A stretch of 64,000 bases of DNA from Pohlia nutans (taxonomy: Eukaryota > Streptophyta > Bryopsida > Bryales > Mniaceae): assembly GCA_022496805.1 (NCBI GenBank), contig CM040089.1, forward strand, positions 44,376,372 to 44,440,371, written 5' to 3'. Position 1 is the stretch's first letter, and every line of letters starts with the position of its first letter. A program made the translations under genes and the position numbers. The notes below the pieces were generated by a model. That model saw only the letters and a list, made by a program, of their open reading frames with translations, ran no database searches and was not told the DNA's origin. Of the stretch, positions 1,172 through 63,798 are shown in pieces.

Positions 1172-1175
1172 TTAA

Positions 1176-1524
1176 CCCTTAAATGACATTTTAGGTCCTC
1201 GGTGGGCAGCCCGAGGATCTCTGAAAGAATATGGATTATATATTTAGGCCGGGCATGGGTGCATGACCAATCACAACAAAGAAACAAGCACACAATGAAT
1301 GAATTGGGAACTTGGGCAAGAATCAAATGATCCTCCAATACCTTTGATTTAGACATTGCGAACAAGCATGAAAGAATTTGTTGTTGCAACTAAACACATC
1401 AGATGCCTGACCTTGTTGTGCATCCAATGATCTATGTCTAGTTAGAAGGAGTTGAGTAATGCTCCTGCTAGAAGCAAGATTCCTTGGAAATCAAGCCCGA
1501 GGGGCTTGGAAAGACGTTTAAGGG
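1176..1524. mobile_element. TTAA-flanked MITE (349 bp)
   Basis: Bounded by TTAA on both sides (1172-1175 and 1525-1528). The ends are CCCTTAAATGAC and, inverted, CCCTTAAACGTC. Both ends carry a subterminal palindrome of the AGCCCGAGGGGCT type, as in the family at 32728-33496. No transposase. TTAA duplication and CCC ends fit a piggyBac-type non-autonomous element. Confidence 0.7.
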
Positions 1525-1528
1525 TTAA

Positions 1529-3071
1529 TGAATAAGGCGGGTGAGAGAGCCAGTGAATGAGTGTCCAATGTTCATGAAATTCAAAACTTGGTAAATGATG
1601 TTTATCAATCGGTACACTAATTCATGGGGTTCCGTCCTACTCTTCTATATAACTACAAACTAGTGTATAATATGGAGTATACTGACATGGAATAAAGAAT
1701 GTAGGTACCAACTATTAAATATGAAATCTAGATATAAAAAGAGGAATTGAAAGTTGCACTTGCGTTCATATGGCATGAGGTAAACATATCCATTACCATC
1801 CATTTTAACAATTCCGCCTTTATGTATCATAATATACATTTGTGTTCGCTACTAGTGCATGAGGACGGAATTGATTGTTGGGTGGTAATGGGTAATCTAT
1901 GTCCACATTAGTTAGTACTAGAACTATCTAACACACTCTTCATTCATGAAAATTTTAGAACCAAATTGATTTTTCATCTTCTTCTTTTATAATGTCAAAG
2001 CAATCATTCACTACAAACTAATTTTTGTTTCAAGGTATGGACATTATTTGCAAGATTGTCCCTATCTATTGTTGTTGTTTGTATAATCATATGTTATACT
2101 CTAGTAGATAAGGATGATTTTATTTTATTATTTATTTTTTGAATTTTAATCAACATTGTCCATAATATGTGGACATACCTTATCTGTCAGCTCCAATTGA
2201 CTGTCTTCCAGTGCCAACCAATTTTGAAATCAGTTGGACTGAGTCCGTCTCTAGCAATTCATTCAAATTGGTTATTCTTCTGCTGTCTGGAATTGAAGTT
2301 ACTGGTAACATAAGTTATAGTTGAAGGGGTCATGGCAATTCAAGTTTCAAACGTATTGCCAGAAAATCTGGTGATTGCCTGCCCTCTTTTGCAATGGGGT
2401 TTCATTTGTTTAGAAAAGAAATAGACTGGGGATTGATTCCAAGGGGTCTCATGTTCTAGATTCCCCAAGAGTCAAAGAGGACATTACCGAATCTAATTTC
2501 GGTGGAGCAGTCCACATGGCGGATTTTCTTGTTATTTTTTCATTATTATTATTATTATTTTTGACATTCATTTAATTTTTTTAAGCACATGGTATCTCAT
2601 TTTTCAGTGAGTCGGGGACCACCACCGAAGGAGGTAACTTAACTCTTTACAGCCCACGCAACCACATTGTGGTCACTAAGGCATGTTTTTGCAACCTACC
2701 GTAAGATCTACTCCAAATCAAGCATCAATGTTTGAAGTTCAGATGTGGAGCTTTGTCTCACGCACACACTTCAAAAATAAAATTATGATTTGGAGTTGTG
2801 AAGCTATCAAATCACTTAATATCTACAAAACACCAAAATACTGCAAATACCTCAAAATACAACAAATACTTACAAATACAACACATGTACTATGCGGTAT
2901 TTCTTGTGTTTGGAAATTTTTTATCTTCTTTTATTTTTTGGATCATGTTCTCTTGTTCATGTTCCATTAGTGTATGTATTCCGATCTTGATCAATGTACC
3001 AACTCCTTTCATATTTATACATATAAATTTTGTCCTAAACCGTATATGGATAAGTCACTCTCACTTATAAA
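1529..3071. other. intergenic
   Basis: AT-rich, no supported gene. ORFs of 90-95 codons around 2683-3070 are low-complexity, overlap in different frames and show no domain. Confidence 0.4.
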
Positions 3072-3443
3072 ATTCACAATAATTATGTGTGAGTCCGTTC
3101 TTGACATGAAAGATTGCAACGGAGAGGTGTTGACATAGGTCATTGCTGAACTGCTTCACTTTCATTTCTGAAAAGTTAACCCAAATTCTATTTAACTTTG
3201 AAGTCACACACCCTCCAAAATCTCGTTCTTGAATGTGTATTATACGGTTCAAAGACATACTATGATCTTCCAATCCAACGGTCCGATCTTACCAAGGTTT
3301 AATCGACACTTGTTTGATTAAGCTATGCTTTTATTTATACGGTTGAATACTATTAATAATATCCCTAATTTCAACAAAGAGAGTTTTAAAAGAAAAAACA
3401 CCAAATCTGAGGTTTCTGCAGAACAAGGCTGGGCGGTAAAGGG
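3072..3443. repeat. dispersed repeat, TTAA at right end (copy 1)
   Basis: This tract matches 57967-58340 closely along its length; both begin ATTCACAATAATTATG and both end in GGG followed by TTAA. The left end lacks the CCC terminus, so these may be fragments truncated at the same point or an element with a different left end. Confidence 0.6.
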
Positions 3444-3447
3444 TTAA

Positions 3448-5040: not shown

Positions 5041-5049
5041 TTTAGGTTA

Positions 5050-5390
5050 TACTCTCCACCAATTGGATGAGCCCACAACTCATGGCATGCAACCCACTTG
5101 TGAGTTGGACAAAAATTCCTTTGAGGTGTCCAATGAATCTAATTGGCTTAGATTTTTTGGCAAGCCTACCCGAAGTGTTGAAGTTGCCTTTCAACATTGA
5201 GGTTTTTCACTTTGAAAAATTCCCCTAAGTGGAGTTTTGATCGGATGGGCATAATTCCAATTGCATTGGAACAAAGACTCGTTTACCTATGACATATATT
5301 TTTTATTTTGAAAAAAAGTTATTTTTTTGGACCTAGGCAGCCCGGGAAAATGGGCAGCGACCAAAAAATGGTCTCTTGGGAGCTTAGGGG
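5050..5390. mobile_element. TTAA-element fragment (right end)
   Basis: The right end GCTTAGGGG is followed by TTAA (5391-5394). The terminal 60 bases, read inverted, match the left end of the 28692-29848 element, with palindromes of the ACCATTTTATGGT and GGGCTGCCC types. The interior 5090-5290 also matches that element in reverse. No left end is visible, so this is a truncated copy. Confidence 0.6.
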
Positions 5391-7436: not shown

Positions 7437-7441
7437 CTGCA

Positions 7442-8141
7442 TGATGGAAATTTGCCTTTTCATAAAGACGTAAATCTCAGATGGTACCCTGTTTAGATTA
7501 ACTTAATATATAGTAACATACGGTTGTAACAACCAAGCATGAGTTACTGTTACGTCTGTTACTTACTGTTACTAACTACAAAGTACCATACTGTTACTAA
7601 AGGCCCGTTCGCACTTGGCCTTTGCAAAGACCGTGGATAAAAATTTAACACCCCCACAATTTTGGGAAAAATACCTTCTTTGTAGGAAAGGTGTCATCAA
7701 TGAGGTTTGGAAAAGTGTTAGCAATAGTAGGGGGATTACATAATGGCCCCTCAAGTGCCACATTAGCTAAGACCATTCTTTAGTGTTCAAAACTAGGGAA
7801 TATTTCTTATTTTGGTGCTCCCTTAACAATTGCCTACTATTGCTCAAATATTTTTTGTCCTCCTAAATGTTAGCTAATACCCATTCTTAAAAGTGTGCCA
7901 TGTGTACATCCATGTAGGATTGGTAATTACTAAAGAATGTAGGTGGGAACACACACTTTTTTAAGGGTGTAAGACCCCCTTGTAAGACCACCTCTAAGGC
8001 CAGGTGCGAACATACCTTAACTAACTTCACTACACACTAACTACACTGAGTGCACTTAATCTATCTACAGAAGGCTCATTACTTTTACCTACCTAACGCC
8101 AGGTGTGTACCATCGATGCAAGACTGGACTTTGGTCCAACA
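7442..8141 (-). repeat. 3' LTR of copia element, interrupted by MITE
   Basis: 280 bp of LTR (7442-7600 and 8021-8141) split by a 417-bp MITE plus one copy of its 3-bp target duplication. The LTR is otherwise almost identical to 13447-13726. The differences are one T/C near 7527 and two close together near 8067. Confidence 0.95.
7601..8017. mobile_element. MITE in the copia LTR (TAA target duplication)
   Basis: Inverted ends AGGCCCGTTCGCACTTGGCC and AAGGCCAGGTGCGAACATACCT. The 3-bp duplication TAA (7598-7600, 8018-8020) is proven by the uninterrupted 5' LTR, which reads straight through this point. The 3-bp TAA target and GGCC-type ends fit a PIF/Harbinger (Tourist-like) MITE; that assignment rests on family knowledge. 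It is younger than the copia insertion. No ORF of note. Confidence 0.9.
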
Positions 8142-8229
8142 CCCCCTCGCACACCTGAATTTCGTCCACCCTAACCTTCCTTCTTCGAGCACTCGGTGCA
8201 CAGTTCCTTGCTCGAGAGATTCTTTCACC

Positions 8230-13179: not shown

Positions 13180-13446
13180 GGCGAATGAGATGACTTGCTA
13201 CACTGACACTCTAGCTTGAGATACGACAAAATGACGACATTGAAATGATCGATGACAGAAGACAGAGGATAGAAGATTGATGCTAAGAATGAACCTATAT
13301 ATAGAAAGTTGTCTTCGCTCTGAGCAATGCTACAAGAGTAACGGTTTTGACCTTGACTAGGCTTGGAGCAGAAGCTCACACGTCCTTGTTGTAGGAGCAG
13401 TGCTCACCACACATACTAAATTAATTTCCCTCAAGCTCTGATACCA

Positions 13447-13726
13447 TGATGGAAATTTGCCTTTTCATAAAGACGTAAATCTCAGATGGTACCCTGTTTA
13501 GATTAACTTAATATATAGTAACATACGGTCGTAACAACCAAGCATGAGTTACTGTTACGTCTGTTACTTACTGTTACTAACTACAAAGTACCATACTGTT
13601 ACTAACTAACTTCACTACACACTAACTACACTGAGTGCACTTAATCTACCTAAAGAAGGCTCATTACTTTTACCTACCTAACGCCAGGTGTGTACCATCG
13701 ATGCAAGACTGGACTTTGGTCCAACA
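13447..13726 (-). repeat. 5' LTR of copia element (intact)
   Basis: 280 bp, TG...CA, uninterrupted copy of the LTR. It ends next to the primer-binding site on its inner side and the CTGCA target duplication on its outer side. It should carry the element's promoter. Confidence 0.95.
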
Positions 13727-13731
13727 CTGCA

Positions 13732-14838
13732 CTCCTCGCACAACACTGTTGGTGATGACAAAAGGAGCAACCCCGGCACCTTAAACAACAACCCATGCCG
13801 GGACCTCGGTGCTAAGTTAGTCGTCGTCGTCACCAGTCATCGTTTTCCCGCCCTGCCACCGAAAGAGACTCGTAAAATAATCGCAATTTCCACCACATTG
13901 TGCACACGGTAAGGTAGTTGTGCAGACAGAGAATCACACACACAGAAGAGAGCAGAATCATCAGTGAGAGTTCCACATGGACTCTGCCTAGAAAGTCTGG
14001 ACCCCCGGAAGTCGCAGTTTGTTTCGTCGGGCGTGTGCGTTGGTTGACAGACAATGTGGATCCAATACTGGCGAAATTCACGGGTAGTTATTATGGCTAC
14101 TAGGGACCGACCTTGTGCTTACCAGCAGCTACAGGCTGTGAACCTTTGGCAGATCTCGACGTTGGTCGTTCCTGTGTTTCGTAATGCCAAGTCATTCCTC
14201 TCTTTGTGTTTTCCGAATCTAGAGGGACGCTCCTTGAAGGCTCTGTCTGTGATGACCAGTCTCTGCTGGCGAGGGTACGTGTGCACACTTCTCTGTTCTT
14301 GTGAGGACGAAATGATTGAATTCGCACTGAGCGTAGGGGCTTGGAAACTAGGGTTCTTTTTGCTTTTTTCGCAAAGAGAGAAGATATGGAGCGCAGCATC
14401 TTTTACTTTTTCCAACATGGAGCTCGTTTTTTAGATGTCTAGTATTAAGGTCCGGTAGATCCACGAGATCCGTCCGTCTTGCTCTCGGGACAATCTGACA
14501 TGAACTCATGTGGTGATTGCAGGAATGAGTAGTGGTGCTCGTAGCAATGTGGAACAACCTGGACACTGTCGGTGGTGTATGGGGTTATGTGCAATTGGCT
14601 TTTGATGTTCTTCTGTGGCATTGGGGTGGTTTCTTATTATTATTATGACAAGAAAAAGAGCCATCGTTGACAAGAAAGAGTCTCCATGTGGGGAAGATGT
14701 GAAACCAGGGCAGAGTGGGAACCATGAACCGCCAGAAGCTGCAAGTGTTCGGCTCTGTAGCAATGCAGCGTACCGCTTTCGTTCTGGAGCTACCACATAA
14801 TTCACTCTTATCAATTGTCTCAGAAGGTTTCTACTACC
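13732..14838 (+). promoter_or_regulatory. upstream region and probable 5' leader of the formin gene
   Basis: No convincing coding exon. The string 'caattgtctcag' ending at 14823 has the look of a 3' splice site, so the start codon may follow a leader intron, with upstream exon(s) somewhere in 13.8-14.7 kb. If so, an upstream exon could also supply a signal peptide missing from the main ORF. The copia insertion bounds the upstream region about 1.1 kb from the start codon. Confidence 0.4.
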
Positions 14839-20743: not shown

Positions 20744-21284
20744 CCCTTTGACGCGCTTGCGTCCATACAATGGACGATGAACACATTGTAAGTCTTCTCT
20801 TGACTACATCCCGTACAGTTTTTCATTCATCCAAATTTTCCTAGGTTCTTGTGCTAGTTGACTACCATTTGTACAGTATGCATCTTCAAAATAAGATATT
20901 GTGATTTTTTTTTAAATGACAAAATTGGTTTATGTCAAGTTTCATTCTTAGTTCAAAAAGTGAGACCTTAACAATGATTTTCCAAAATAAGTAGAATCAA
21001 ATAATGGAAATTATACCATTTCATAGTGCATCTTATTCCAAATTTGTTCTAATTTTTTTTTAATGAAAAATTGTTAATTTGGAAATTTTAAGTGAATTTC
21101 AAAAGAAAACCTTGCAAAATTAATTAAAAACTATTAATAAAAAATATGATAAATCCAACCGTACAGATGTGATCTACACATTGAGATTTACAACTTTTCT
21201 TTATAAATCAACTCCATTTTTGTGATGCATCAAAGATTTTATAACACATCTTTGAAATCGGTGGTGGATCTGGACATTAAAGGG
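20744..21284. mobile_element. TTAA-flanked MITE, 540-bp family (copy 1)
   Basis: 541 bp between TTAA (20740-20743) and TTAA (21285-21288). Ends CCCTTTGACGCGC and inverse CCCTTTAATGTCC. Carries a subterminal near-palindrome of the GTCCATA...ATGGAC type. Same family as 26039-27541, 30435-30864, 33890-34429 and 49386-49925. No transposase coding. Confidence 0.85.
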
Positions 21285-26038: not shown

Positions 26039-27541
26039 CCCTTTAGCGCGCCAGCGTCCATATATTGGACGACGAACAGATTAAAGCTGTTCGAATCTCA
26101 TCCAGATTGGACATTTTTCATCTACCAAAATTACCCTTGGTTCTTGAGCAAGTTGACTATCCTTTGAACGGTTTGGATCTTCAAAATAGGTTATTATGTA
26201 TTTTAGAAAAATAACACAATCGGTTTATGTCAAGTTTCATTCTTAGTTCAAAAAGTGAGACCTCAAACATGATTTTCCAAAATAAGTAGAATCAAATAAT
26301 GGAAACCATACCATCTCGTAGCTCGTGTTATTCCAATTTCATTACAATTTTTTGAAATTTTTTCGTGTTAATTTGGGATTTTTAATTGAATTTCAAGAGA
26401 AAACCTTCAAAAATTAAAAATAAATAAATAATAAATAATATGATAAATCCAACCGTACAGATGTGATCTTCACATTCACATTTACAACTTCGCTCTGTAC
26501 AGTACCAGGCAACTCTCATTCGTCCACCCCCTTTGCTGCTGCAAACATCAGCACTATACCTGTAATTTGGAAATGACACCAGAGGTTCAAAAATCCATGG
26601 AATTGCAAACCGTAAATTGGGTTGGGAAGGTAATCAAGTCTAGTTTTATGGCATGATAATTTTTTACATTGAAGTTGTCAAATCATACAACAATAGAGCT
26701 TTTTATGATACACTATGTACAATGAAGTGCTACCATCATCAGAACTTGTGACGGGCATCATACTGAAAGACATGCTAGTAAAGAAAACTTCAAGGGTCTC
26801 CGTATTGATATATTTGTATGGTAATTGAACGGTTCTGACCAATACTTCTTCTTGTTTGGCCCCAAGTCATTTTGTCATGTATGATTTTGAGGCATTGGAA
26901 AAACATTCTACTTATCTGTCCACAACAAGTGGGGTGACCTTCAAATCTATGAACAAATCCTACTATTAAGTTTGAGAAATTGCCAAGAAAGTAATTTGGT
27001 TGTTTACAACTTACTCAATAGCCAAATGGAAGCACCATTGTGGCTTACAAGAATGAATGTTAGAAACCACACAAAAACGTTCATGACAAAATGACTTGGG
27101 GCCAAATAAGAAAGAGATATTGGTCAAAATTGTTCAACTACCATTCAAATATATCAATATGGAGACCCTTGAAGTTCTCTTTACTAGCATGTCTTTATGT
27201 ATGAAGCCCGTCACAAGTGTTGATGGTGGTAGCACTTCATGGTACATAGTGTGTCATAAAAAGCTCTATTATTTTATGATTTGACTACTTCAATGTAAAA
27301 AATAATTATGCCATGAAACCAGACTTGATTACCTTCCCAACTCAATTTCCCGTTCGTGATTTCATGGATTTTTGAGCCTGTGGTGTCATTTTCAAATTGC
27401 AAGTATAGTGTAGATTTTTGCATCCAAGGGGGGTGGACGAATGAGAGTTGCCTGGTACTGTACATCAACTCCATTTTTGGTTTTCATCAAACATTTAATA
27501 ACGCTTCTTTGAAAACAGTGTTGAATCGGGACGTTAAAGGG
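26039..27541. mobile_element. TTAA-flanked MITE, 540-bp family (copy 2), with nested element
   Basis: TTAA at 26035-26038 and 27542-27545. Ends CCCTTTAGCGCGCC and inverse CCCTTTAACGTCCC. Removing the nested element (26500-27460) and one TA leaves exactly 540 bp, the length of the other copies. It is homologous throughout to 33890-34429. Confidence 0.85.
26500..27460. mobile_element. foldback-type element, long inverted arms, TA target
   Basis: 961 bp, TA on both sides (26498-26499, 27461-27462). The ends CAGTACCAGGCAACTCTCAT and inverse match, and the two arms stay inverted copies of each other for about 380 bp (26500-26880 against 27080-27460) around a roughly 200-bp unique centre. CAGT ends and TA target point to the Tc1/mariner superfamily. 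No ORF. A transcript would form a long hairpin. Confidence 0.85.
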
Positions 27542-28691: not shown

Positions 28692-29848
28692 CCCCTAAGC
28701 TCCCAAGAGACCATTTTGTGGTCGCTGCCCATTTTCCCGGGCTGCCCAGGCCCAAAAAAACAACTTTTTTTCAAAACAAAAAATACGATGTCATAGGTAA
28801 ACGAGTCTTCTTTCCAACCCAATTGGAATTATATCCATCCGATCAAAACTCCACTTAAGGTAGAAGCACCAAAACCTGTTAAGGACCAATTCCAGTCACC
28901 TATGCAAGCACCTGTTTCAACTTCGTGAGTTTCCAATCAAATTATCACAACCATTAGTTGTAGCAGTTTGGTGATCAATTATGAATGCCAAGTTAGCAAA
29001 TTGATTGGACTAGAAATGAAAGACGAGTATTGGTTCCCCTACTAACATCAATAGTGGTCTATGCAGATTAAGTTTGAAAATTCAGAACAAAATCATACAT
29101 TGTGACAAAATTAATTAAAAATTGGGCTTGGTTATTAAACCCAAAATTTTATGTGCTGCGATTTTTTATCATTGAAAACCATCACTCTAAATAGGTTGAA
29201 ATTCTTAAACTGACAGGTATTGGTGCCTCCACCTTAGGGGAATTTTTCAAAGTGAAACACCTCAATGTTGAAAGGCAGTTTCAACACTTCGGGTAGGCTT
29301 GCCAAAAAATTTAAGCCAATGAGATTCATTGGGCACCTCAAAGGAACTTTTGTCCAACTCACATGGATTGCATGCCATGAGTTGTGGGCTCTTCCAATTG
29401 GAGGAGAGTTGAAGGGATAATCTAATTTAGCCAAAATCTCTTGCTTTCCTTCATACCCCCACCTATTACAAGGTCTCTGAAAAAATGCTAATGAATTGAA
29501 CATCTTGTCAAATTGAGTCATGCATTTTGTTAACTACCTCATCTTGAGAATGGTCAAAAATGGCACATCATTTTAACTTTTTTTTTGGGTTTGAGAGCCC
29601 ATCAAAGCAAGGCTGCCCGGATTTTTCAGGACCTGAAATTTCAAAATCTCAACTTCATTTGCTATAATCTTGACATCCGTACGGTCAAATGTTTTGAAAT
29701 TTTGAGGGATGGTTTATAAGGCCTAGGAGTGTAAGATCCTACGGTTGGAATGTGAAAGAAAGTTTTTGAAAAGCATTCAGAGGTCATCAACGAAAATGTT
29801 CAAAATGAGGCAGTTTTGGGTGGGGGACCCCCCTCGGGCATTTAGGGG
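28692..29848. mobile_element. TTAA-flanked element (1157 bp)
   Basis: TTAA at 28688-28691 and 29849-29852. Ends CCCCTAAGCTCCC and inverse CCCCTAAATGCCC. The left end carries palindromes ACCATTTTGTGGT and GGGCTGCCC shared with 32175-32716 and 5050-5390. An ORF of 95 codons inside (29234-29521, minus) has no recognised domain. Confidence 0.75.
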
Positions 29849-30434: not shown

Positions 30435-30864
30435 CCCTTTAACGTCCAGATCCACCACCGATTTCAAAGATGTGTTATAAAATGTTTGATGAATCACAAA
30501 AATAGAGTTGATATATAAAAAAAAGTTGTAAATCTCAATGTGTAGATCACATCTGTACGGTTGGATTTATCATTTTTTTTATTAATAGTTTTTAATTAAT
30601 TTTGCAAGGTTTTCTTTTGAAATTCACTTTAAAATCCCAATTTAACAATTTTTTATTAAAAAAAATTACATTGAATTTGGAATAATATGCACTATGAGAT
30701 GGTATAATTTCCATTATTTTGAAGATCCATACTGTACAAATGGTAGTCAACTAGCACAAGAACCAAGGAAAATTTGGATGAATGAAAAATTGTATGGGAT
30801 GCACTCCAGAGAAGGCTTACAATCTATTCCTCGTCCATTATATGGACGCAGGCGCATCAAAGGG
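30435..30864. mobile_element. TTAA-flanked MITE, 540-bp family (internally deleted copy)
   Basis: Inverse orientation of copy 1. Ends CCCTTTAACGTCC and inverse CCCTTTGATGCGCC. TTAA follows on the right (30865-30868); the left flank reads TTTAAA. 430 bp, so about 110 bp is missing. Confidence 0.75.
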
Positions 30865-30987: not shown

Positions 30988-31223
30988 CCCTTAAAGGACA
31001 ATGCAAGCCCCATATGCTTGATAGTATTTTGGGAGAATCTTGCTCATAACTTCTACTCCGTTGAGCAAATGGGGTTTTTTAAATGCCAAACCGTCGAACA
31101 CCTTTAATGGATCTATACTTCTTTAGAATAGAATCAGAGTAAATTAAAAAGAGAATCATGCTTAAAATTGAGTTTAAAAGAGATTTTGAGTGTGGAATCA
31201 GGAAAGCATATGTCCTTTAAGGG
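30988..31223. mobile_element. TTAA-flanked MITE (236 bp)
   Basis: TTAA at 30984-30987 and 31224-31227. Ends CCCTTAAAGGACAATGCAAG and inverse CCCTTAAAGGACATATGC; well-matched terminal repeats. The right TTAA is shared with the next element, so the two abut. Confidence 0.8.
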
Positions 31224-31664
31224 TTAACCCCTAAAGGTCGGGCCTATGACCATGGAATCATGCTTTATCCGTCACACTCAATTTTGCTACTATAAATAAT
31301 ACAAGAATTCAACTTTATATTTTTAGTAGACAAAGCCACGTGTCTACTACAAATCATGAATTTTTCATAAATTTTGGTGAAAATTTGAAATTACTATGAT
31401 TTTTTGAAGTGATTGTAAAGAAAATTCATATCAATTACAAAATGTACTAAAAAATTCCGAGTTTTTTTACCAAAGGTGTAAATTACAATGAAGAATAGTT
31501 TAGTTAATGAAAATCATCCGTGTATCTAAATTTAGAAATTTTTGCTACACCATAGTAATACCTACCAAACTTGTAACTGCAATAAAACACTCAATTTTCA
31601 AAGTTTTTCAAAAATTCAAAGTAGAGTAGAAACTAGACTTGGCAAGCTTCATATTGTTAGTTAG

Positions 31665-32723
31665 CCCTTAAACGTCCAAAAAGCCCCACGGGCTTGTTTT
31701 GAGAGAATAATCAAGAAAAAAGTAGATTTTCTCAACCAAAATTGAAATGGATTGGTGCTTTGGAAAGGTGATGAAAAAGCGAGGCTAAATTTAGCAAATA
31801 CGCATGTTTTAGTAAATTGTACACTCCAAGGAAATTGGAAAGAGAATTGGTGGGGAGGGAGGGGAGGGAGTCGGGCAGCTTGAGATCTTGATGGATACCA
31901 GAGCTGCCAGCGCTGTTCAACAGTGTTTGTTTTTTTATTTTATTTTTTAATAAATTTTAAATCTAGAACTGCAAAGCTCACTGCAGAGCCGGAATCTCAT
32001 TGTATTTTTAAATTTGTTTTTGGAGTGACATTGTTCACTCCATTCATTGTTCATAGAGGATTTGAGGAATTCTCATTGGTTGTTCACGTTATTCAAGGGG
32101 CTACAGTTGGGGGCAGCTCTCTTAATTTTTTTTTTTCCTTTAGGCTGCCCGTCTAGGACCCTCTTGACGTTTAACCCCTAAACGACAGAGGGGGTAAGGG
32201 CAAAACCTAAATGTGTTATAAAATGTTTCTTTTACAACTTCGATGAAGTTTGGTCCAAAAGAGAAAATGAGAAGCACGATGTTTAGTAATTATCCGTACG
32301 GTCAAACTTTCAAAAAATGTTTTAGATTCTCATTAAACGAATTTAGAAGCATTTATCGTTGAATATTCACCAAAATTACAAATTTTATTTTTAGAATTTG
32401 AAATTTGGTATGATTGGTTGAAACTAAACAGTCTATTCTAAAGTTCAAAAAAGCAAAACTTATGAAAGAGGGAACATCATTACTTTCCCGAAATAGTAAG
32501 TTTTGTAACACTAAGACAATGTTGAGGTGTTTGCCTTTGAAAATTTCTCCCGGGTGGAGTTTAACTCGGATTGACATGATTCAAGTTGGGTTGGAAAGTA
32601 GACTTGATTTCCTATTTGAAAATATTTTTTTATTTTCTAAAAAAGATTTTTTTTCATCTCGGGCAGCCCGTAAAAAAGGGCAGCGACCATAAAATGGTTG
32701 ATCGGTCACTTAGGGGTTAAGGG
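31665..32723. mobile_element. TTAA-type MITE (GACGTTTAAGGG family), split by insertion
   Basis: Left end CCCTTAAACGTCCAAAAAGCCCCACGGGC after TTAG. The right end is ...GACGTTTAA interrupted at 32174 and completed by TTAAGGG at 32717-32723, followed by TTAA. Same family as 32728-33496 (inverted) and 56776-57332. No ORF beyond short A/T-rich ones. Confidence 0.85.
32175..32716. mobile_element. TTAA-type MITE inserted in the TTAA of another element's end
   Basis: 542 bp, TTAA at 32171-32174 and 32717-32720. Ends CCCCTAAACGACAG and inverse CCCCTAAGTGACC. The target TTAA is the one inside the terminal repeat CCCTTAAACG of the host element, whose end is perfectly restored when this element is removed. 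Confidence 0.9.
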
Positions 32724-32727
32724 TTAA

Positions 32728-33496
32728 CCCTTAAACGTCAAGAGGGTCCTGCCCAAAGGAATATAATTATTTTAGAGAACTGCCCCCAACAGTAGCCCAT
32801 GTGAGTAATTTGAACAGCCAATGAGAATCCCTCCAATCCCATGTGAATAGTGAATGGAGTGAACAGTGATAGCTCCAAAAAAAACAATTAAACAAATCCA
32901 ATGATATTCCGGCTCTGCAACTGTGAAACTCTGGATAAAATTTTAAAAACGATTTTTTTTTAAAAAGTCAATGGAATTCTCTCACCATTCAGTTTGACTC
33001 AAAAAATAAAAACAAAAAAAATTTAAAAAGGGAGTTTGAGGCATGCAGCGCCTGGCAGCTTGGCTGCATCATGCCTTGCGCATGCCGAGTATTCGGTTTT
33101 TAAAATTTTAAAATTTTTTTGCCTTGCGTTGCATGCCTTGCGCATGCCAAGTATTCGGGTTCTTTTTTAATTTTTGCCATGCTCTGCGCCCTGGAGTGTT
33201 CGTTTTTTTTTATTTTTTTTATTTTTTTTATTTTTCTTTTAACATTGTATTAGCTCTCATCTTGCCTGCGCTACCCCGACCACCATGCACTCAAGCTGCC
33301 CGACCCCCTCCTTCCTCCCATCGCCAATGTTCTTTCCAATTTCTTTGGAATGTACAATTTACTAAAACAGGCGTATTTTCTAAATTTAGCCTCGCTTTTT
33401 CATCACCTTTCCATTTCAATTTTGGTTGAGAAAATCCACTTTTTTCTTCATTATTCTCTCAAAACAAGCCCGTGGGGCTTTTTTGACGTTTAAGGG
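32728..33496. mobile_element. TTAA-flanked MITE, GACGTTTAAGGG family (769 bp)
   Basis: TTAA at 32724-32727 and 33497-33500. Ends CCCTTAAACGTCAAGAGGG and inverse CCCTTAAACGTCAAAAAAGCC. Lies directly against the previous copy in opposite orientation, sharing one TTAA. The middle holds low-complexity T-rich sequence and repeated 'gcatgccttgcgcatgcc'. Confidence 0.85.
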
Positions 33497-33889
33497 TTAA
33501 GCTCAAATGCAATAGAACTCATTTTCATGGCCTAAATTTAGTTTAAGCAGAAAAAGCAGAAAAATTCAAAATACACTACATGGTAAACCATTTTTACGAC
33601 TCTTTTTGTAGTTGGGACCCCATGTAAAATCTAAAAATAGCTTGAATGATATGAATTTAACTTGAAAGGGTGGCATGACCAAGCAAAATCCTTCACAAAA
33701 AGAATTGGATGGAAATCATCCACATAGTAGTTGGAATTGAATAGTCAGTTCCATTCATAAGCCAATTTTTGGTCCGGGCGGCGTTTTGGGGTTAAGGCAT
33801 TTCGGCATTGTAATGAACAGTTCTTACAGTTAGCACTCACAGTTAGAGCTTCATAACAGTAGCGCTGTAACGGTGGTATCATGCAGTAA

Positions 33890-34429
33890 CCCTTTGACGC
33901 GCTTGTGTCCATATATTGGACGACGAACAGATTGCAACCTTTCTCTTGACTACATCATGTACAGTTTTTCATCCATCCAAATTTCTCTTGGTTCTTGTGC
34001 TAGTTGACTATCATTTGTACGGTATGGATCTTCAAAATAAGATATTGTGATCTTTTGAAAAACAACACAATTGGTTTATGTCAAGTTTCATTCTTAGTTC
34101 AAAAAGTGAGACCTTAACAATGATTTTCCAAAATAAGTAGAATCAAATAATGGAAACCATACCATCTTGTAGTGCATGTTATTCCAATTTCATTACACAA
34201 TTTTTTAATTTGTGTGTGTTAATTTGGGATTTTTAATTGAATTTCAAGAGAAAACCTTGCAAAATTAATTTAAAAATATTAATAAAAAATATGATGAATC
34301 CAACCGTACAGATGTGATCTTCACATTGACATTTATAACTTTGCTTTGTATATCAACTCCATTTTTGTTTTTCATCAAACATTTTATAACGAATCTTTGA
34401 AAACAGTGTTGAATCGGGACGTTAAAGGG
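33890..34429. mobile_element. TTAA-type MITE, 540-bp family (copy 4)
   Basis: 540 bp, ends CCCTTTGACGCGCTTGTGTCC and inverse CCCTTTAACGTCCCG. Flanks have drifted to GTAA and ATAA. Closest to 26039-27541 in sequence. Confidence 0.8.
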
Positions 34430-46651: not shown

Positions 46652-46889
46652 CCCTAAAGGCCCAAGGGGCGTCAAAGTGTCCCCCCCAAAACATTTGAAC
46701 GCAAACTTTGAACATTATAATCTTGTAAGCTAAACGGTCAATTCTTCCAATATTCTGCACAGCCCTAGGCATTGCAGATATAAACACTATCCAACAGTGA
46801 ATTTCCGTGGATCTCATTTTTCGGGCTGGAATTGCACTTTATTTGACAAGGTGTCTATTTTTGGGGTGAAAATTGGAGGGCTTTAGGGG
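46652..46889. mobile_element. TTAA-flanked MITE (238 bp)
   Basis: TTAA at 46648-46651 and 46890-46893. Ends CCCTAAAGGCCC and inverse CCCCTAAAGCCC. No ORF of note. Confidence 0.7.
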
Positions 46890-48652: not shown

Positions 48653-50048
48653 CCCCTAATTGCCCGGTCGACCAGATATGGTCGATCCAAAATTTCAACT
48701 TGTTCCTAAGTGGGCAATTTAATTCCTTTGACCGGTTTAAAAAAAATTACGGCTAGTGCTACGGGTTAATTTTTAGATTTTGTTATTTTCAACCAAAAAA
48801 GGTTATTTTATTTTATTTTAGGGAGGGGCTCAAAGGCACTTATGTCCCATTGCTCCTACAATTTAGGCAAAGGGTGGGGACAATGTATGTGGAACTCCCA
48901 AATTTGTGTAAACTTCAACAAATTTATTTGTTTTTGAGATCTAAAAAGTTCTAAGTCTTATCCAACATTTGTTTTGAGAATGGTCTCAATGGAAAGAGTT
49001 GGGAGATTCCATGATTTTGACCATTGAAAATTTAGACATGCAAGGAGTAATTTGGAGTTATTTGTGATATCTAGTACTTATATATCAAGTGTAAAAATAA
49101 ATAAAAATGCATTTCAACAACTGCAAGGTGGATTGTGTAATGAGTTTGATAGCTCTTGATTCAAACTTAGGATTTTTGAATGTGCATTTTAGTGTACTAA
49201 CACAATTTCTAGTTGTTCATGTCACCTCAATCCCAAAAAACTCTCATGTGCATATTTCACAAACATTGTAGAGAGGGGCAACATATTATAAATAGAATGT
49301 GTACATTTCTCTTGTTATAATCTCACAACTCATATGGAATTTCACACTCAAAATTGGTATGCATACTAATAAGCAAGCTCTTTAACCCTTTGATGCGCAT
49401 GTGTCCATATAATAGACGATGAACAAATTGTAAGCCTTCTCTTGACTACATCCTGTATAATTTTTCATCCATCCAAATTTTCCTTGGTTCTTGTGCTAGT
49501 TCACTACCATTTGTACGGTATGGATCTTCAAAATAAGATATTGTGACTTTTTTTTAAATGAAAAAATTGGTTCACGTCAAGTTTCATTCTTAGTTCAAAA
49601 AGTGAGACCTTAACAATGATTTTCCAAAATAAGTAGAATCAAATAATGGAAATTATACCATCTCATAGTGCATATTATTCCAAATTCGTTATAATTTTTT
49701 TCAATAAAAATTTGTTAATTTGGGATTTTAAAGTGAATTTCAAAAGAAAACCTTGCAAAATTAATTAAAAACTATTGATAATTTTTTTGATAAATCCAAC
49801 TGTACAGATGTGATCTACACATTGAGATTTACAACTTTTCTTTATATATCAACTCCATTTTTGTGATTCATCAAACATTTTATAACACATCTTTCAAATC
49901 GGTGGTGGATCTGGACGTTAAAGGGTTAAACATCTATATGGTTAGATTTTGGAAAAAAAGAAACAATTTGCCTCATTGGGGATAACAATAAGCCCATGTT
50001 GTTTATTCATAGGAAAAACACACTTGGAAAGGCTTGGGCACTTAGGGG
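48653..50048. mobile_element. TTAA-flanked element hosting a nested copy
   Basis: TTAA at 48649-48652 and 50049-50052. Ends CCCCTAATTGCCCGG and inverse CCCCTAAGTGCCC. Contains the complete 540-bp element 49386-49925; without it and one TTAA the host is about 852 bp. Confidence 0.7.
49386..49925. mobile_element. TTAA-flanked MITE, 540-bp family (copy 5)
   Basis: TTAA at 49382-49385 and 49926-49929. Ends CCCTTTGATGCGC and inverse CCCTTTAACGTCC; exactly 540 bp. Confidence 0.85.
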
Positions 50049-50614: not shown

Positions 50615-51654
50615 GGGTCCATTCAAGCTAATACGAACCGGCTAAGTTGTGAGCAGTGCTTTTTCAGTGCATTTTTGGAGGCATTTTCGATGTGATGTTT
50701 GATTTAAATTGTTATTAGAAAGGAAAGTGATATGTAAATGTTTGCAACATGTATATAAAACACATAGTACAAGATGAAAGCAATATTTTAAAATTTTGGG
50801 TATTAACCCCTAACTGCCCAGGCGTCTATTTTTTGGACAATGTATAGATTTCATCCAAATTTTCTCATCCGTCATGCGCTTTTCGTAGTGTGGATTTTTT
50901 ACTATAGATTTTATGGGAAGTTAGCTTCATGCATATGTGATCCGATTAGAAAGGGGATGATTTGTGAAATTTTTATGCCTCATTTCATGTTGCATTGATT
51001 CAACAAAAATTTCTAAAATCTTAGTTCAAAATAGATCAAAAGTGCTCTTAAAAAAGTCAACTCATAGAATTAAGCAACCAAAAAATCTCCAAAAATCACA
51101 ACACTTAGAGTATTACATTTCAACCCATCATAACAAATTTCATCTACAAATTGTCAATATCTTGTTCGTAATCGAATTACAAAATAATTTTGAATTTTAA
51201 GTTTCAAAATTTATACAAAAATATTGGTGATAGCAATCATAGATCTAACCATATGGATAGAATCTAAAATTCATAATGTACAACTTTTATTCATACATCA
51301 AGTTCAAAATATCCCTCTTAGTTGCATTTTATAATGCATCTTTGCAAAACTGCCCAATCTAGAGAGGGTTGTGGGCATTTAGGGGTTAAAAGCACTAAAA
51401 TAGCTCTGTCATCAATCGTTTTAATGACTCACTAAGGACTTTTCTAAATGATAAATAACACTTTTTTGGTAGAAATTTTGGGATAATCGAATGAGAATGA
51501 TGATTATGTGAATGAAAAATGAAATCAATACATTAAAAAATTGTTCTTTGGATGAAAATCATGACTTTTTTGTCTCTAACGACTCTCCAAAGGACTCTCC
51601 AAAGCACTCACTGAAAACGAGGCACCCTTGGCTCGTATTAGCTTGAATGGACCC
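50615..51654. mobile_element. MITE, GGGTCCATTCAAGC ends, with nested TTAA element
   Basis: Ends GGGTCCATTCAAGCTAATAC and the inverse, flanked on both sides by GGGT. After removing the nested 50807-51385 element and one TTAA the host is about 457 bp. Ends resemble the GGCCCATTCACAC family. Confidence 0.7.
50807..51385. mobile_element. TTAA-flanked MITE, 575-bp family (copy 1)
   Basis: TTAA at 50803-50806 and 51386-51389. Ends CCCCTAACTGCCCAG and inverse CCCCTAAATGCCC. Homologous, in reverse, to 59481-60052 and 63225-63794. 579 bp. Confidence 0.8.
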
Positions 51655-56775: not shown

Positions 56776-57332
56776 CCCTTAAACGTCAAAGCAAGCCCCA
56801 CGAGCTTGTTTTGAGAGAATAATGAAGAAAAAAGTGGATTTTCTCAACCAAAATTGAAGTGGATTGGTGCTTTGGAAAGGTGATGAAAAAGCGAGGCTAA
56901 ATTTAGCAAATACGCCTGTTTTAGTAAATTGTACATTCCAAGGAAATTAGAAAGAGAATCGGTGGGGAGGGAGGGGAGGGAGGGGAGGGAGGGGAGGGAG
57001 GGGAGGGAGGGGAAGGAGGGGAGGGAGTCGGGCAGCTTGAGACCTTGATGCATACCAGAGCTGCCAACGCATGCCAGCGCTGTCAACAATGTTTTTTTTT
57101 TTTTTTGTTTTTTTTAAATCCAAAATTGCAGAGCTCACTGCAGAGCCGGAACCTCATTGAATTTTTTAATTTGTTTTTGGAGTGACACTGTTCACTCCAT
57201 TCACTATTCAAATGGGATTTGAGGAATTCTCATTGGTTGTTCACGTTACTCAAGGGGCGACTGTTGGGGGCAGCTCTCTAAAAAAAAAATTCCTTTGGCC
57301 TGCCCGTCCAGGACCCTCTTGACGTTTAAGGG
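56776..57332. mobile_element. TTAA-flanked MITE, GACGTTTAAGGG family (557 bp)
   Basis: TTAA at 56772-56775 and 57333-57336. Ends CCCTTAAACGTCAAAGCAAGC and inverse CCCTTAAACGTCAAGAGGG. It contains an expanded (GGGGA/GGGA)n run at 56963-57026 that is only a few units long in the copy at 31851-31872. Confidence 0.85.
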
Positions 57333-57780: not shown

Positions 57781-57789
57781 AGACAATGA

Positions 57790-57905: not shown

Positions 57906-57966
57906 TCTTGTATTATTACATATATTATGTACATTTTATATAATATAATTCATATTATTATATAAT

Positions 57967-58340
57967 ATTCACAATAATTATGTGTGAGTCCGTTCTTGAC
58001 ATAAAAGATTGCAATGGAGAGGTGTTGACATAGCTCATCGTTGAACTGCTTCACTTTCATTTTTGAAAATTTAACCCAAATTTTATATAACTTTGAAGTC
58101 ACACACCCTCCAAAATCTCATTTTTGAGTGTGCATTACACGGTTCAAAGACATATTATAATCTTTCAATCCAACCGTCCGATCTTACCAAGATTTAACCG
58201 ACACTTGTTTAATTAAACTATGCTTACATTTATACGGTTGAATACTATTAATAGTATCCCTAATTTCAACAGAGAGAATTTTAAAGAAATACCACCATAA
58301 AAACTGTAGTTTCTCCAGAACGAACTTAGGCACTAAAGGG
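57967..58340. repeat. dispersed repeat, TTAA at right end (copy 2)
   Basis: Homologous to 3072-3443 over its full length; ends CACTAAAGGG then TTAA. Starts at the same base as copy 1 although the left flanks differ. Confidence 0.6.
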
Positions 58341-58521
58341 TTAAGTATTACAAAATGACACTTCCTCCTGCGGGGTCTTTACTCTTGTCTACGCCACTGA
58401 CATCGCCATTGCAATCACCACATACACCACAGTCCTAGAAATGCGTCGCCACCTCCATATATGTCTAAACAACGTACGAATGGTGCAATTTCCAAAAACA
58501 ACGCACTTCACCTGATGCATT

Positions 58522-58735: not shown

Positions 58736-58738
58736 ATT

Positions 58739-59476: not shown

Positions 59477-59480
59477 TTAA

Positions 59481-60052
59481 CCCCTAAAGGACTTCACCCC
59501 TCTCTAGATTTAGTGAATTGCAAAGATCCATTATAGAATGAAACTAGGAGAGATATTTTGAACTTGATGTATGAATAAAAGTTGTACATTATGAATTTTA
59601 GATTTTGTCCATACGGTTAGATTTATGATTGCTATCACCAATATTTTGTATAAAATTTGAAACTTGAAATTCAATTTATTTATTTTTTTGTAATTTGATT
59701 ACGAATAAGATATTGACAATCTATGGATGAAATTTGTGTGATGGGTTGCAATGTAATACTCTAAGTCTAGTGATTTTTGGAGATTTTTTGGTTGCTTGAT
59801 ATTATGAGTTGATTTTTTCAAGAGCACTTTTGAACCAAGATCTTCGAAATTTTTGGTGAATCACTTCAACATGAAATGAGGCATAAAAATTTCACAATCA
59901 TACATTTTCTAAAACTTTCACCAACAATCCCTCCGTAATAACCCTAAAAATTTACAGTAAAAATTTCACTCTACCAAAAGTCGACAACAGATGAGAAAAA
60001 CAAATTCATTTCTGTACATCATTCATTTTTTGGACGGTTGGGCGTTTAGGGG
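59481..60052. mobile_element. TTAA-flanked MITE, 575-bp family (copy 2)
   Basis: TTAA at 59477-59480 and 60053-60056. Ends CCCCTAAAGGACTTCACCCC and inverse CCCCTAAACGCCC. 572 bp. Confidence 0.8.
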
Positions 60053-60229: not shown

Positions 60230-60560
60230 CCACTCATTGCTATACCAAATGAATTGACTAAGGGTATTATTAAAGATAATAACATCATCAATGTAGTATT
60301 AAGCAAAGGATAAGCCGTTCAACACACAATCCATCACCCATTGGAATTCCACCAATGTGTTCTTGAGACCAAGAGGAAGAAACTTCCAGATAGATAGATA
60401 GAAACTCCGGTCCTCTTTCGAGGCCGGCGTGAATAAAGTGTCTGTTCGTAATGTCAATGACCCAGTGCCCACTGGACAAAGGGCCATTGGAACAAAACTA
60501 CTCTCCTTAAAGAAACTTTCATCTTGATAAATTCTCCAAAATGTCATCTTCACCTAATTC
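60230..60560 (-). pseudogene. Ty3/gypsy reverse transcriptase relic
   Basis: On the minus strand one frame gives SGHWVIDITNRHFIHAGLE, matching the 'SGYxQI..' block of gypsy RT; a shifted frame gives LPLGLKNTLVEFQWVMD (the 'MPFGLTNAPATFQRLM' block), then GLSFA, a stop, and YYIDDVIIF (the YxDD catalytic block). So RT core blocks are in order but with at least one frameshift and stop. No LTRs or other Pol domains were found. Confidence 0.8.
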
Positions 60561-60589
60561 TTCAATAGAAGAATAGATTTTTTTTAGAA

Positions 60590-62900
60590 GAACCTTCTTA
60601 GTTAAAAAACATGTTTATGATTGGTTAAAAACCGCCTAATGTGACACTACCGGTATTTCATTAACTAATTTTTAAAATTAAATCCAAATATGACGTTTAG
60701 AATATGGATAATCTTTCTATGATGGGTTTGAAATTTCTTCTAGAAGGACCTTGGCTAATGTTCAAGAATATGCTTTTGATTTGGAAGCCACCACTCAATG
60801 TGGCACCATATCTTTCATTGAAATCTTGAATTATACACCAATGTGTTAACTATAAAACAAATAATCTTTTTATAGTGAGTTGGATTTTTTTTACATAAAG
60901 GGACTTCTAATGTTGTAGAACATGCTCTTAGGATTGGTGAGTGACCACGCAATGTTACACCATATCATTAAGTGACATAACATTCAGTAGCGAGTTATGA
61001 CTATGCCTTTTCATCCATCTACAACCTGTTAGCTTTGGAAGAGTGGGAAGATGAATGTAGTTGCCACATGCCACCTCCCACTGCCATCATCGTCTCTGCT
61101 TGTTGTAATAAATCCCACCAGACACATTTGTTTCATAGCTACTGATGAAATAAGGATGATGATGTCAAATATTCCACAAGTTCTCCTCAAGGAGAGGGCA
61201 AAGACTATCCTTGAAGGCTACTGAATTTTATGGAAATTTTGTATTATATCCTAGGGAACAAACATTCTTTCTTTGGCAAGTAAAATATTTCTTGTAGAAA
61301 GACCTTACGGTGTTCATGAAATTCAATATGCTTTTGACATGGTTCTATATTGATGAGTCACCATCCAATGTGGGCATGTGGCATTATGCCATTAATTGAA
61401 ATCTGTTATTTTACCTTGATGTGACAAATAGGGGACAATAGTTTTTCTATGATATGTTTGTCCATTGTTGTCCCTTAACTCAAAAATAATAATATTTATA
61501 AGCTTCTTATGTTTTTGCATAAAAAATGAAGGATATATGTAAATAAAGATGTTTTTGAGTTGGAGGATGACAATATATAATTTTACCTTATGGCAAGTTA
61601 GAATTTTTTTAGAAGAACTCAGTATTCAAGGATATGCTTGTAATTGGTGAGTCACCACCAACGGCATCAAGTGTGACACCACATGTGTCATTTACTAAAA
61701 TCTCGTATTATACGCCATTGTAACATCTAGGGAACATGCATTCTATTTATAGTAAGTTGAATATATTTTTTAGAGGGACCTTTTAGCATTTAAGATTATG
61801 CTTCTAATTGATGCGTCACCACTCAATGTGGCACCATGTCATTAACTATAATCTTGAATTAAAGCCCAACGTAATACCGGTAGTGAAGATTATAGTCTTG
61901 TGTTATTTTTAATGTGATTTGGATGTAACTTCCACAGATACATTTTTATGGCTTTTAAAAAAATTATAAAAATGTTGAGTGAAGTTTTTAATTGCGAAAA
62001 TTCAAAGATGACTTTCTTTTGGTTCTAAATAAATTTAATGCAATTTTGTAAAACCTTAAAAATGTCTTAAAACAACACTAAAAAGGCTTGTAAAAAGGAT
62101 GGACATGCATGATATACATGTTCTAGATAGTTAGGGGTTAATTTCATTCTATACCTAACATCTTCAAGACTAAAAAAATAATCTTATTTCATCCATTAAA
62201 AATAATAATAATAATTATTATTATTATTATTTCTCAAATTGCAATTAAAGTGCAATTTACATTTTTGGAATGAATTTGGACTTCAAACATTAATGATGAA
62301 CATTGCATTTCATCATTTCTTCCAACTGAGTATCTTTGAGGACAACTACAATGTACAAGATTCTCACCAAAAAGTTGTAATATGAGGCTAAAAAAGTATT
62401 ATATTTGACTTAGATATGCTCTTGACTAGGAAGCCACCATCCAAAGTGATACCATGTCATTCTCAGTTAACATCTTGAATTATAGCCCAACGTAACACTC
62501 AAGAGACAAACATTCTGTCTATTGTGATTTGAATATTTATTCTAAAAGGACCTTTTAGCATTCAAGAATATGCTACTAATCTAATAGGTGAGTAGCCACT
62601 CAATGTGGCACCATATCATGCACTAAAACCTTGAATAAAACTCCAATGTGGTAGCAAGGGGAACAATATTTTTTTTGGTGGTAAGCTAGATTTATTCTTT
62701 TCTAAAAGGACTTTGAAGTGTTCAAGAATATGCTTTTGATTGGTACGTCACTAAAAATTGTGACACCATGTTAGTTACTAAAATCTTGAATTAAACTCCA
62801 AATGACTGTAAGAACAAAATCATATATTTTATTTATGGCAAGTTGTATATTTCTTCAAGAAGAACCTTGTAGTCAATGCATAAGTTTGACACTTTCTTTA
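60590..62900. repeat. degenerate satellite-like array (about 150-170 bp period)
   Basis: A phrase like 'caagaatatgcttttgattggtgagtcaccactcaatgtggcaccatgtcattaac...aaatcttgaatta' recurs near 60600, 60760, 60910, 61330, 61630, 61790, 62415, 62550 and 62720, often preceded by 'agaaggacctt'. Closest neighbours are 151-168 bp apart. Copies are strongly diverged and gaps occur. No coding. Confidence 0.6.
62134..62141. other. orphan TTAA-element right end
   Basis: TTAGGGG followed by TTAA inside the degenerate array; no left partner identified. Confidence 0.4.
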
Positions 62901-62918
62901 GATTCCAAAGAACAATTT

Positions 62919-62944
62919 AGTTTTTTTTTTTTTTTTTTTTTTTT
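62919..62944. repeat. poly-T run
   Basis: About 26 T in a row, possibly a poly(A) trace of a retroposed sequence on the minus strand; no partner sequence recognised. Confidence 0.6.
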
Positions 62945-63224
62945 GGTAATCATATTTTCTACCGACTTGATAACATTTCAAAATTTCAATTACAAACCAA
63001 ACCCAAAATTTTAAAAAATCACAAAATTGTGGTATACAAATTAAACATGTATGTAGGATGCTGTATATATATATAAATGGGAAGCATAAATCAATCAACA
63101 TAATTCTAAATCTAAATGAGGCCGTCTTTCATAACACACCACTTTACTTCATACATCTTCAAAGTTGATAGAAAGTACTGGAAATTTGCCATTCCTACTC
63201 TCATGTATGCCTCTAAAGTCTTAA

Positions 63225-63794
63225 CCCCTAAACGTCCTCACCCCTCTCCAAATTCGGCAGTTTTGCAAAGATGCATTATAAAATGCATCTAAGAAGGATA
63301 TTTTGAATTTTATGTATTAATAAAAGTTGTACGTTATGAATTTTAGATTCTATCCATACAGTCAGATCTACGATTGCTATCACCAATATTTTGTATAAAA
63401 TTTGAAATTCAAAATTCAAAATTATTTTGTAATTCAAATACGAATAAGATATTGACAATCTGTGGATGAAATTTCTTCTGATCGGTTGCAATGTAATAAT
63501 CTAAGTGTAGTGATTTTTGGAGATTTTTTGGTTGCTTAATTTTATGAGTTTATTTTTTCAAGAGCACATTTAGACTAAAATCTTCGAAATTTTTGGTGAA
63601 TCATTGCAACATGAAACGAGGCATAAAAATTTCACAAATCATCCCCTTTCTAATCGGATCACACATGCATGAAGCTAACTTCGCATAAAATCTACCATAA
63701 AAATTTCACGCTGAAAAAAGATCACCACGAATGAGAATATGGGAAGAAATTATGTACAACATGTGTTTTTTTGCCCTGGTTGGGCAATTAGGGG
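63225..63794. mobile_element. TTAA-flanked MITE, 575-bp family (copy 3)
   Basis: TTAA at 63221-63224 and 63795-63798. Ends CCCCTAAACGTCCTCACCCC and inverse CCCCTAATTGCCC. 570 bp. Same orientation as 59481-60052. Confidence 0.8.
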
Positions 63795-63798
63795 TTAA

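Follow-up and report, generated by a model that had tools for sequence, protein, structure and literature searches.

The window, the whole 64,000-nucleotide stretch of Pohlia nutans DNA that was analysed, lies on a contig that carries plant genes (FH2 formin, LTP, Copia) together with MITEs. Nineteen element intervals were drawn up in the window (Table 1). An exact TTAA on both sides, combined with CCC...GGG ends, was found in 15 of these, a count that includes A5 and H, each with a nested insert, and element X. The four imperfect intervals were A3, A4, C1 and, being truncated, D3. At least fifteen TTAA-flanked elements had been proposed in the original prediction, and all ten of the intervals named there have TTAA directly at both sides and CCC/GGG ends. 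Elements cover 9,870 bases, or 15.4% of the window, close to the sixth that had been estimated. The interval beginning at 49386 is indeed flanked by TTAA, but it is not free-standing, as it lies inside a larger TTAA element. With respect to size classes, the 557- and 769-bp elements of the proposed 560-770-bp class both belong to family C. The two elements assigned to a family of about 240 bp (30988-31223 and 46652-46889) did not match one another by self-BLAST (E 1e-6, minimum length 70 bases), and one family is not shown.

Table 1. Elements and related features in the window.
Feature	Position	Strand	Description
Family A MITE	20744..21284	+	541 bp, TTAA at both sides
Family A MITE	49386..49925	+	540 bp, within element H (48653-50048)
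Family A MITE (A3)	33890..34429	+	flanks decayed, GTAA left, ATAA right
Family A MITE (A4)	30435..30864	-	internal deletion; flanks TTAA at one side, TAAA at other
Family A MITE (A5)	26039..27541	+	split by TA-flanked Tc1/mariner-like MITE at 26500-27460
Family B MITE	50807..51385	-	579 bp; right end resembles left ends of autonomous piggyBac L020/L023
Family B MITE	59481..60052	+	572 bp; right end exceeds null in comparison with left ends of L014/L028
Family B MITE	63225..63794	+	570 bp; left end resembles right ends of L016/L022/L026
Family C MITE, copy 1 (C1)	31665..32170	+	left flank TTAG; D2, in its own TTAA, splits right tip
Family C MITE	56776..57332	+	557 bp
Family C MITE	32728..33496	-	769 bp; adjoins family C copy 1 at common TTAA
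Family D element	28692..29848	+	1157 bp; left and right ends above null against autonomous ends
Family D-type MITE (D2)	32175..32716	+	542 bp; sits in TTAA of family C copy 1 tip
Family D copy, truncated (D3)	5051..5390	-	single TTAA-CCC end
Short MITE F1	30988..31223	+	236 bp
Short MITE F2	46652..46889	+	238 bp, no match to F1
MITE G	1176..1524	+	349 bp
Element H	48653..50048	+	family A copy nested inside
Element X	31228..33791	+	hosts C1-D2-C3 composite; left end recurs in L012, right end inferred
Related empty site (TTGA) for autonomous piggyBac element L015	58959..59082	-	

When the window was compared with 200 dinucleotide shuffles of itself, the element tips were strongly enriched. TTAACCC occurred 20 times (shuffle mean 4.6, maximum 11) and GGGTTAA 24 times (mean 4.8, maximum 12); the longer TTAACCCYTWA and its mirror occurred 13 and 19 times, respectively, against a shuffle mean of 0.16 each and a maximum of 2. 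TTAA directly preceded 32 of the 51 occurrences of CCCYTWA in the window. A simple scan for TTAA pairs was weak when taken alone: 11 of 19 pairs started with CCC, three of them being cross-pairings, and the 4-mers ATAT, TATA and TTTT outscored TTAA. Homology between copies ends at TTAA, beyond which the flanks are unrelated, and elements of the window were found inserted in one another. Pairwise comparison showed the window MITE copies to be 77-93% identical; the copies compared are therefore not recent. A further pair of sequences (E1/E2, at 3066-3447 and 57961-58344) has a GGGTTAA right end in common and was left uncounted, the left homology starting away from TTAA.

Family A was also examined outside the window. 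A first look at the genome gave 6,763 candidates, 40 of which were scored, and ten further copies on eight contigs were picked by hand from these 40. TTAA adjoined the right end in 10 of 10 and the left end in 9 of 10 (TTGA in the remaining copy), and the flanks were otherwise unrelated, in keeping with the expectation that copies elsewhere would also show TTAA. Moreover, filled and empty versions of the same repeats were found inside the assembly. Five related empty sites were recovered, each with a single TTAA-type site, which reads TTGA rather than TTAA in two of the five; two weaker copies of the L020 site, which lie in L013 and L014 and read TTAG, received no separate count. Beside these five, D2 interrupts a family C tip of known sequence. 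The related empty sites are evidence of precise insertion but not of excision. Other empty-site candidates were dropped: F1/L012, where the match was mostly the end of element X itself; A1/L010, where one side was too short; D2/window, where the match was the adjoining element; and self-matches of L014 and L020.

The 698-Mb assembly was searched with the piggyBac transposase profile PF13843 (DDE_Tnp_1_7). The first look gave 1,305 candidates, of which 116 were scored, all of them above the cut-off; 78 of the 116 lacked internal stops. At 14 of 20 fetched transposase loci the gene lies in an element of 5.0-6.4 kb framed by TTAA-CCC...GGG-TTAA, and at the other six the two ends were not both seen. 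The piggyBac transposase that the original prediction had proposed to look for was found, in full-length elements bounded by ends of the same type; among the elements examined, no full-length relative encoded another transposase class. TTAA target duplication, a piggyBac trait, was observed in the window, in the family A copies, at the transposase loci and at the empty sites. piggyBac tips, as described in excerpts of PMC2872659, are inverted repeats of 12-19 bp starting CC(C/T)T. The tips found here largely follow this pattern, some having CCCC before the T, and the left and right repeats are imperfect: over their first 16 bases they agree at 9-14 positions in the 14 autonomous elements.

Intact transposase frames are 878 and 1002 aa long, and a long low-complexity N-terminal part precedes the transposase domain. 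The L020 and L010 proteins scored 273 and 278 bits with PF13843, and matched the solved structures of piggyBac (6x67; 2.2e-33 and 7.8e-26) and piggyBat (9c0f; 4.1e-24 and 1.1e-26). The Asp motifs DE, DNxFTS and GVDxxDQ, which we take to mark the positions of the catalytic triad, aligned between L020 and 6x67 and between L010 and 9c0f. When searched as regular expressions, all three were kept in 12 of the 20 fetched frames, the other eight being broken or divergent. The autonomous relatives belong by these domains to the piggyBac superfamily. In five diverged transposase pairs dN/dS was 0.09-0.35, two of the values resting on near-saturated dS (1.7); four of the 11 pairs gave no value, three because of saturation and one for want of any synonymous change. 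Near-identical pairs showed no sign of selection (3 synonymous and 14 nonsynonymous changes in L010/L019).

Ends of the window MITEs were then set against those of the fetched autonomous elements. Six of the 26 MITE ends tested (13 elements) match autonomous ends past the tip with consistent left/right polarity; all six come from families B and D, and BLAST also found subterminal sequence in common between these two families and autonomous elements. In subterminal similarity to the fetched autonomous ends, the other 20 scored no higher than the 99% null, three of them (A1 left, A2 left and B3 right) lying exactly on it; no tested C, F, G or H end was above it. MITE families other than B and D have just the tips in common with the autonomous elements fetched.

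We conclude, with a probability of roughly 95%, that this plant holds a large piggyBac population, to which the TTAA-CCC...GGG-TTAA elements of the window belong as non-autonomous members, namely MITEs and relatives with internal deletions. A piggyBac transposase of the DDD type is encoded by the autonomous elements of 5.0-6.4 kb. If it works as piggyBac does, it would act in trans, binding the short inverted tips and the subterminal motifs, then excise the element and insert it into TTAA, which would thereby be duplicated; this mobilisation in trans, the chemistry of cutting, the precision of excision and any activity at present are presumed. piggyBac is usually reported from animals, fungi and protists. 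The superfamily itself is already known, and the surprise is the host, the scale and the recent intact copies.

These recent copies bear on whether the population is a dead fossil, its source extinct and the MITEs mere remnants. The divergence of the window MITEs fits such a history, as do the stops in 38 of the 116 transposase matches. However, L010 and L019, at sites with different flanks, are 99.4% identical over 5,038 bp and both hold intact 1002-aa frames, and L016, L022 and L026 are 98.5-98.7% identical over 6.5-8.7 kb. We therefore regard extinction of the source as unlikely, and the near-identical intact copies support the recently active source that had been proposed.

It is much less probable still that the MITEs should be assigned to a different superfamily with a TTAA target, the piggyBac genes being unrelated bystanders. 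Sola3, which has a Sola transposase, also targets and duplicates TTAA, and families C, F, G and H are tied to the autonomous elements by tips alone; however, tips of the same type frame the 14 transposase-bearing elements, and the ends of B and D carry homology past the tip. Kolobok, with the T2-MITEs of Xenopus, likewise combines a TTAA target with a large MITE population, but it has another transposase and AG/AGGRR ends as given in excerpts of PMC6004289; the window ends are CCC, and this identity was set aside. Animal or protist contamination of the assembly, to which the protein search might point in that all relatives with a species name (8 of 77 matches) are animals, is very improbable, given scored PF13843 matches on all 22 contigs (C1 to C22), the plant genes that share the window contig with MITEs, and the presence inside the assembly of repeats both with and without the insertion.

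Given a plant piggyBac population, a wider reading is that it forms an old plant lineage of its own, apart from that of animals, with several co-resident autonomous subfamilies bearing enlarged transposases; that it is still amplifying here, a single set of enzymes recognising the tips and so moving many MITE families that are unrelated to one another; and that its derivatives make up a large part of the genome. We offer this tentatively, at somewhat less than even odds. In a tree rooted at the midpoint only, and built from homologues collected with a single plant query, 17 plant and 27 unnamed environmental transposases formed one group (support 99) apart from eight named animal sequences; three of the 20 plant frames (L009, L012 and L024) were omitted as broken.

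piggyBac (PDB 6x67) and piggyBat (PDB 9c0f) have in common with the plant elements a DDE_Tnp_1_7-type transposase, the aligned Asp motifs, the TTAA target and CCC ends. They differ in host, in chain length (594 and 578 aa, compared with the longer intact plant frames and their low-complexity N-terminal part) and, for piggyBac, in element length (2,472 bp; PMC10813416). The CMITEs of the coral Acropora (PMC2872659) are, as here, short elements with TTAA duplications and piggyBac relatives in the same genome, and tips such as CCCTTTAAGCCC and CCCCTCAGTGTC resemble those found here; they are about 100 bp long with a common core, whereas the elements here are mostly 236-1157 bp and fall into several families with unlike interiors. 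No paper dedicated to piggyBac in land plants turned up in a literature search, only a general plant mention in an excerpt of PMC10813416 and a 'PiggyBac' line in the repeat table of Ceratopteris richardii (PMC6890710). That line is a land-plant repeat so labelled, with 1,230 copies and 122,417 bp (about 100 bp each), and the table describes no transposase or ends.

The genome possibly holds a thousand or more transposase loci. A plant genome with so many, together with thousands of MITEs, would widen the host range of piggyBac, and such a population would inform how piggyBac spread across eukaryotes. Plant-native TTAA-targeting transposases would also be on offer as tools, and it becomes testable whether one transposase can move many MITE families that have just their tips in common.

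The window had been predicted to carry at least fifteen elements flanked directly by TTAA and starting with CCC. All ten intervals named in that prediction had TTAA borders and CCC...GGG tips, and 15 of 19 intervals had exact TTAA on both sides together with CCC and GGG (the other four being the family copies A3, A4 and C1 and the fragment D3). Element coverage was 9,870 bases (15.4%), close to the sixth of the window originally estimated. When the window was compared with 200 dinucleotide shuffles, TTAACCC occurred 20 times (shuffle mean 4.6, maximum 11), GGGTTAA 24 times (mean 4.8, maximum 12), and TTAACCCYTWA and its mirror 13 and 19 times (mean 0.16 each, maximum 2); on both strands, TTAA preceded 32 of the window's 51 CCCYTWA words. 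TTAA pairs with 12 of 16 matching tips numbered 19, versus 0-2 in each of 20 shuffles, and 11 of the 19 started with CCC (three of these were cross-pairings). Taken alone, this tip-pair scan is weak, because ATAT, TATA and TTTT gave more pairs in the window than TTAA. The tip CCCCTAAA at the ends of B, D and H includes CCCTAAA, the Arabidopsis-type telomere unit, possibly by chance.

Families were sorted by self-BLAST of the window (see table). This gave families A to D and five singletons; two of these, the ~240-bp elements F1 and F2 first described as one family, showed no self-BLAST match to each other. Alignments reaching element ends broke off at TTAA or within about ten bases; some ended short, inside the element, as happened on one side when B1 was aligned with B2 and B3. 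Window copies compared in pairs were identical at 85-93% in family A (four of five copies compared), 81-85% in family B and 77-88% in family C. A further repeat pair (88%) had GGGTTAA at one end and lacked a TTAA start at the other.

Insertion into TTAA was examined next to related sequence. Family C copy 1 ends in the tip CGTTTAAGGG, and D2 was inserted in the TTAA of that tip; since the tip is uninterrupted in copy 2, D2 insertion duplicated TTAA. A paralogous repeat in transposase locus L012 lacks the entire C1-D2-C3 composite, and the composite junction read TTAG in the window versus a single TTAA in L012. Related empty sites were also found for four autonomous elements, with no further gain or loss of bases at any of the four junctions; all such sites are paralogous repeats within the assembly, rather than the same locus of another plant.

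Assembly-wide, family A gave 6,763 first-look candidates, and 40 of 40 scored matched at 89-100% identity (the 100% match being the query copy itself). Ten further copies, on eight contigs, were hand-picked from these 40 and inspected for flanks other than TTAA: the right flank was TTAA in 10/10 and the left in 9/10, the tenth being TTGA. With the window copy included, mean pairwise identity was 0.27 and 0.26 in the flanks, which are thus unrelated, and 0.72 and 0.88 in the insides, which are alike.

The assembly (697,796,988 bases, 332 contigs) was searched with the piggyBac transposase profile PF13843, as a protein with this domain had been anticipated. There were 1,305 first-look candidates; all 116 scored exceeded the cut-off (best E, 1.6e-81), lay on every one of contigs C1 to C22, and were free of stops inside the match in 78 cases (38 had stops). 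Fourteen control genomes gave no PF13843 match. Twenty of the 116 loci, picked from the first 28 rows of the match table, were examined, and in 14 the transposase lay between TTAA|CCC and GGG|TTAA, so that full-length relatives encoded the expected class; these 14 elements span 5,027-6,427 bp. In line with the proposed recently active source, L010 and L019 both keep an open 1002-aa frame and share 99.4% identity over 5,038 bp; their homology stopped at TTAA on both sides, and their flanks were unlike. L016, L022 and L026 were 98.5-98.7% identical, and no left end was found within the 9.9 kb examined per locus. These three loci carry long internal repeats matching one another many times. MITE fragments were also seen inside L014 and L027.

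The L020 and L010 proteins matched the solved structures of piggyBac (6x67) and piggyBat (9c0f), and scored 273 and 278 bits against PF13843. A long low-complexity part comes before the domain, whose first residue is 402 of 878 in L020 and 508 of 1002 in L010; translations show a cysteine-rich tail, whose piggyBat alignment is weak (6.9 bits). In five diverged transposase pairs with a usable estimate, dN/dS was 0.09-0.35 (two with near-saturated dS, 1.7), values compatible with selection for function. No sign of selection came from two near-identical pairs, L010/L019 (1.42, 17 changes) and L016/L022 (0.97, 9 changes), which have too few changes to judge.

Autonomous elements and MITEs have tips in common (CCCCTAACTGCC.. 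and CCCCTAAACGACC.. versus CCCCTAACTGCC.. and CCCCTAAACGTCC..). By BLAST, left ends of L020 and L023 matched B1 and B2 at their right ends (72-76% over 110-124 columns); their match to B3 (80%) spanned 54-55 bases and did not reach the tip; right ends of L016, L022 and L026 matched the B3 left end (97% over 30). In a 40-base comparison of 26 ends from 13 MITEs, against a null in which the first 13 bases are fixed and all later ones shuffled, six ends exceeded the 99% level of the null (B1 right, B2 right, B3 left, D1 left, D1 right and D2 right), with consistent left/right polarity within each family; the other 20 did not, three of them equalling that level (A1 left, A2 left and B3 right). These comparisons support the view that families B and D would be mobilised in trans by the autonomous set; from tips and target, we infer that the remaining families may be as well.

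With the L020 transposase domain as query, 77 proteins were gathered, the ten best being 43-48% identical; the eight with species names were from insects and a catfish, and none from plants. In a quick maximum-likelihood tree of 94 rows (17 of the 20 plant frames plus the 77 homologues), plant rows fell into at least four separate subgroups of a 44-row group (support 99), together with 27 rows without species name and no named animal. The tree was rooted at midpoint, and a single plant query supplied all the homologues, which limits what it can say on direction and ancestry.

The window also carries an FH2 formin, an LTP-type gene, LTPs being land-plant proteins, and a Copia element with a single open 1420-aa frame containing gag, integrase and reverse transcriptase domains; this content points to a plant host. 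Among at least 120 FH2 matches, those with a recognisable species name are seed-plant proteins at 44% identity or less and the nearest ones bear no species name, a pattern suggestive of a non-seed plant. Near-identical segments flanking it (161 bp, 99%; ~140 bp, 95%) are probably its terminal repeats. A TA-flanked Tc1-type element, of a kind not known to be usual in plants, has 24-bp inverted ends (CAGTGACTG..., 23/24 identical) and a 252-aa frame matching DDE_3 and HTH_Tnp_Tc3_2. Another element has tips CAGTACCAGGC and inverted arms of ~390 bp (88%); it interrupts a family A copy, with TA duplicated.

Coordinates and ends of elements, loci and related sites (window positions unless a locus is named)
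Feature	Position	Site or ends	Remark
Family A			five copies, ~541 bp
Family B			three copies, 570-579 bp
Family C			three copies, 557-769 bp
Family D			1157-bp element, related 542-bp element, fragment
F1, F2, G, H, X			singletons
D2	32175-32716
C1-D2-C3 composite junction	31665 (start)
Repeat without composite	L012:1484-1600
L016, L022, L026		right end only
L013		right end, decayed left end
L021		right end only
L024		left end only
Empty site related to L018	L025:2954-3028	TTAA	left of site, only 16 bases matched
Empty site related to L028	L012:251-371	TTAA
Empty site related to L020	L013:7677-7800	TTGA
Empty site related to L015	58959-59082	TTGA
Family B fragment	L014:6041-6381		transposase strand
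Family A fragment	L027:6399-6780		transposase strand
Repeat pair	3066-3447; 57961-58344
Copia frame	8935-13197
Copia-flanking segments	7440-8153; 13445-13742
Tc1-type element	23258-24885	TA	1,628 bp
Inverted-arm element	26500-27460	TA	961 bp
Unbroken family A form	near 34350

PMC2872659 gives the piggyBac end rule as CC(C/T)T with TTAA, and PMC10813416 names CCCTT as the most conserved tip of animal piggyBac. The summary of the latter lists insects, fungi and plants as sources from which piggyBac has been isolated; the bare idea of a plant piggyBac is therefore already in print, and a Ceratopteris repeat table has a PiggyBac entry (PMC6890710). Full-text searches of a limited library found no paper devoted to land-plant piggyBac, which is weak evidence of novelty. 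We conclude that a large piggyBac population in a plant, intact near-identical autonomous copies included, is genuine; its kind is known, and its host and scale are unexpected.
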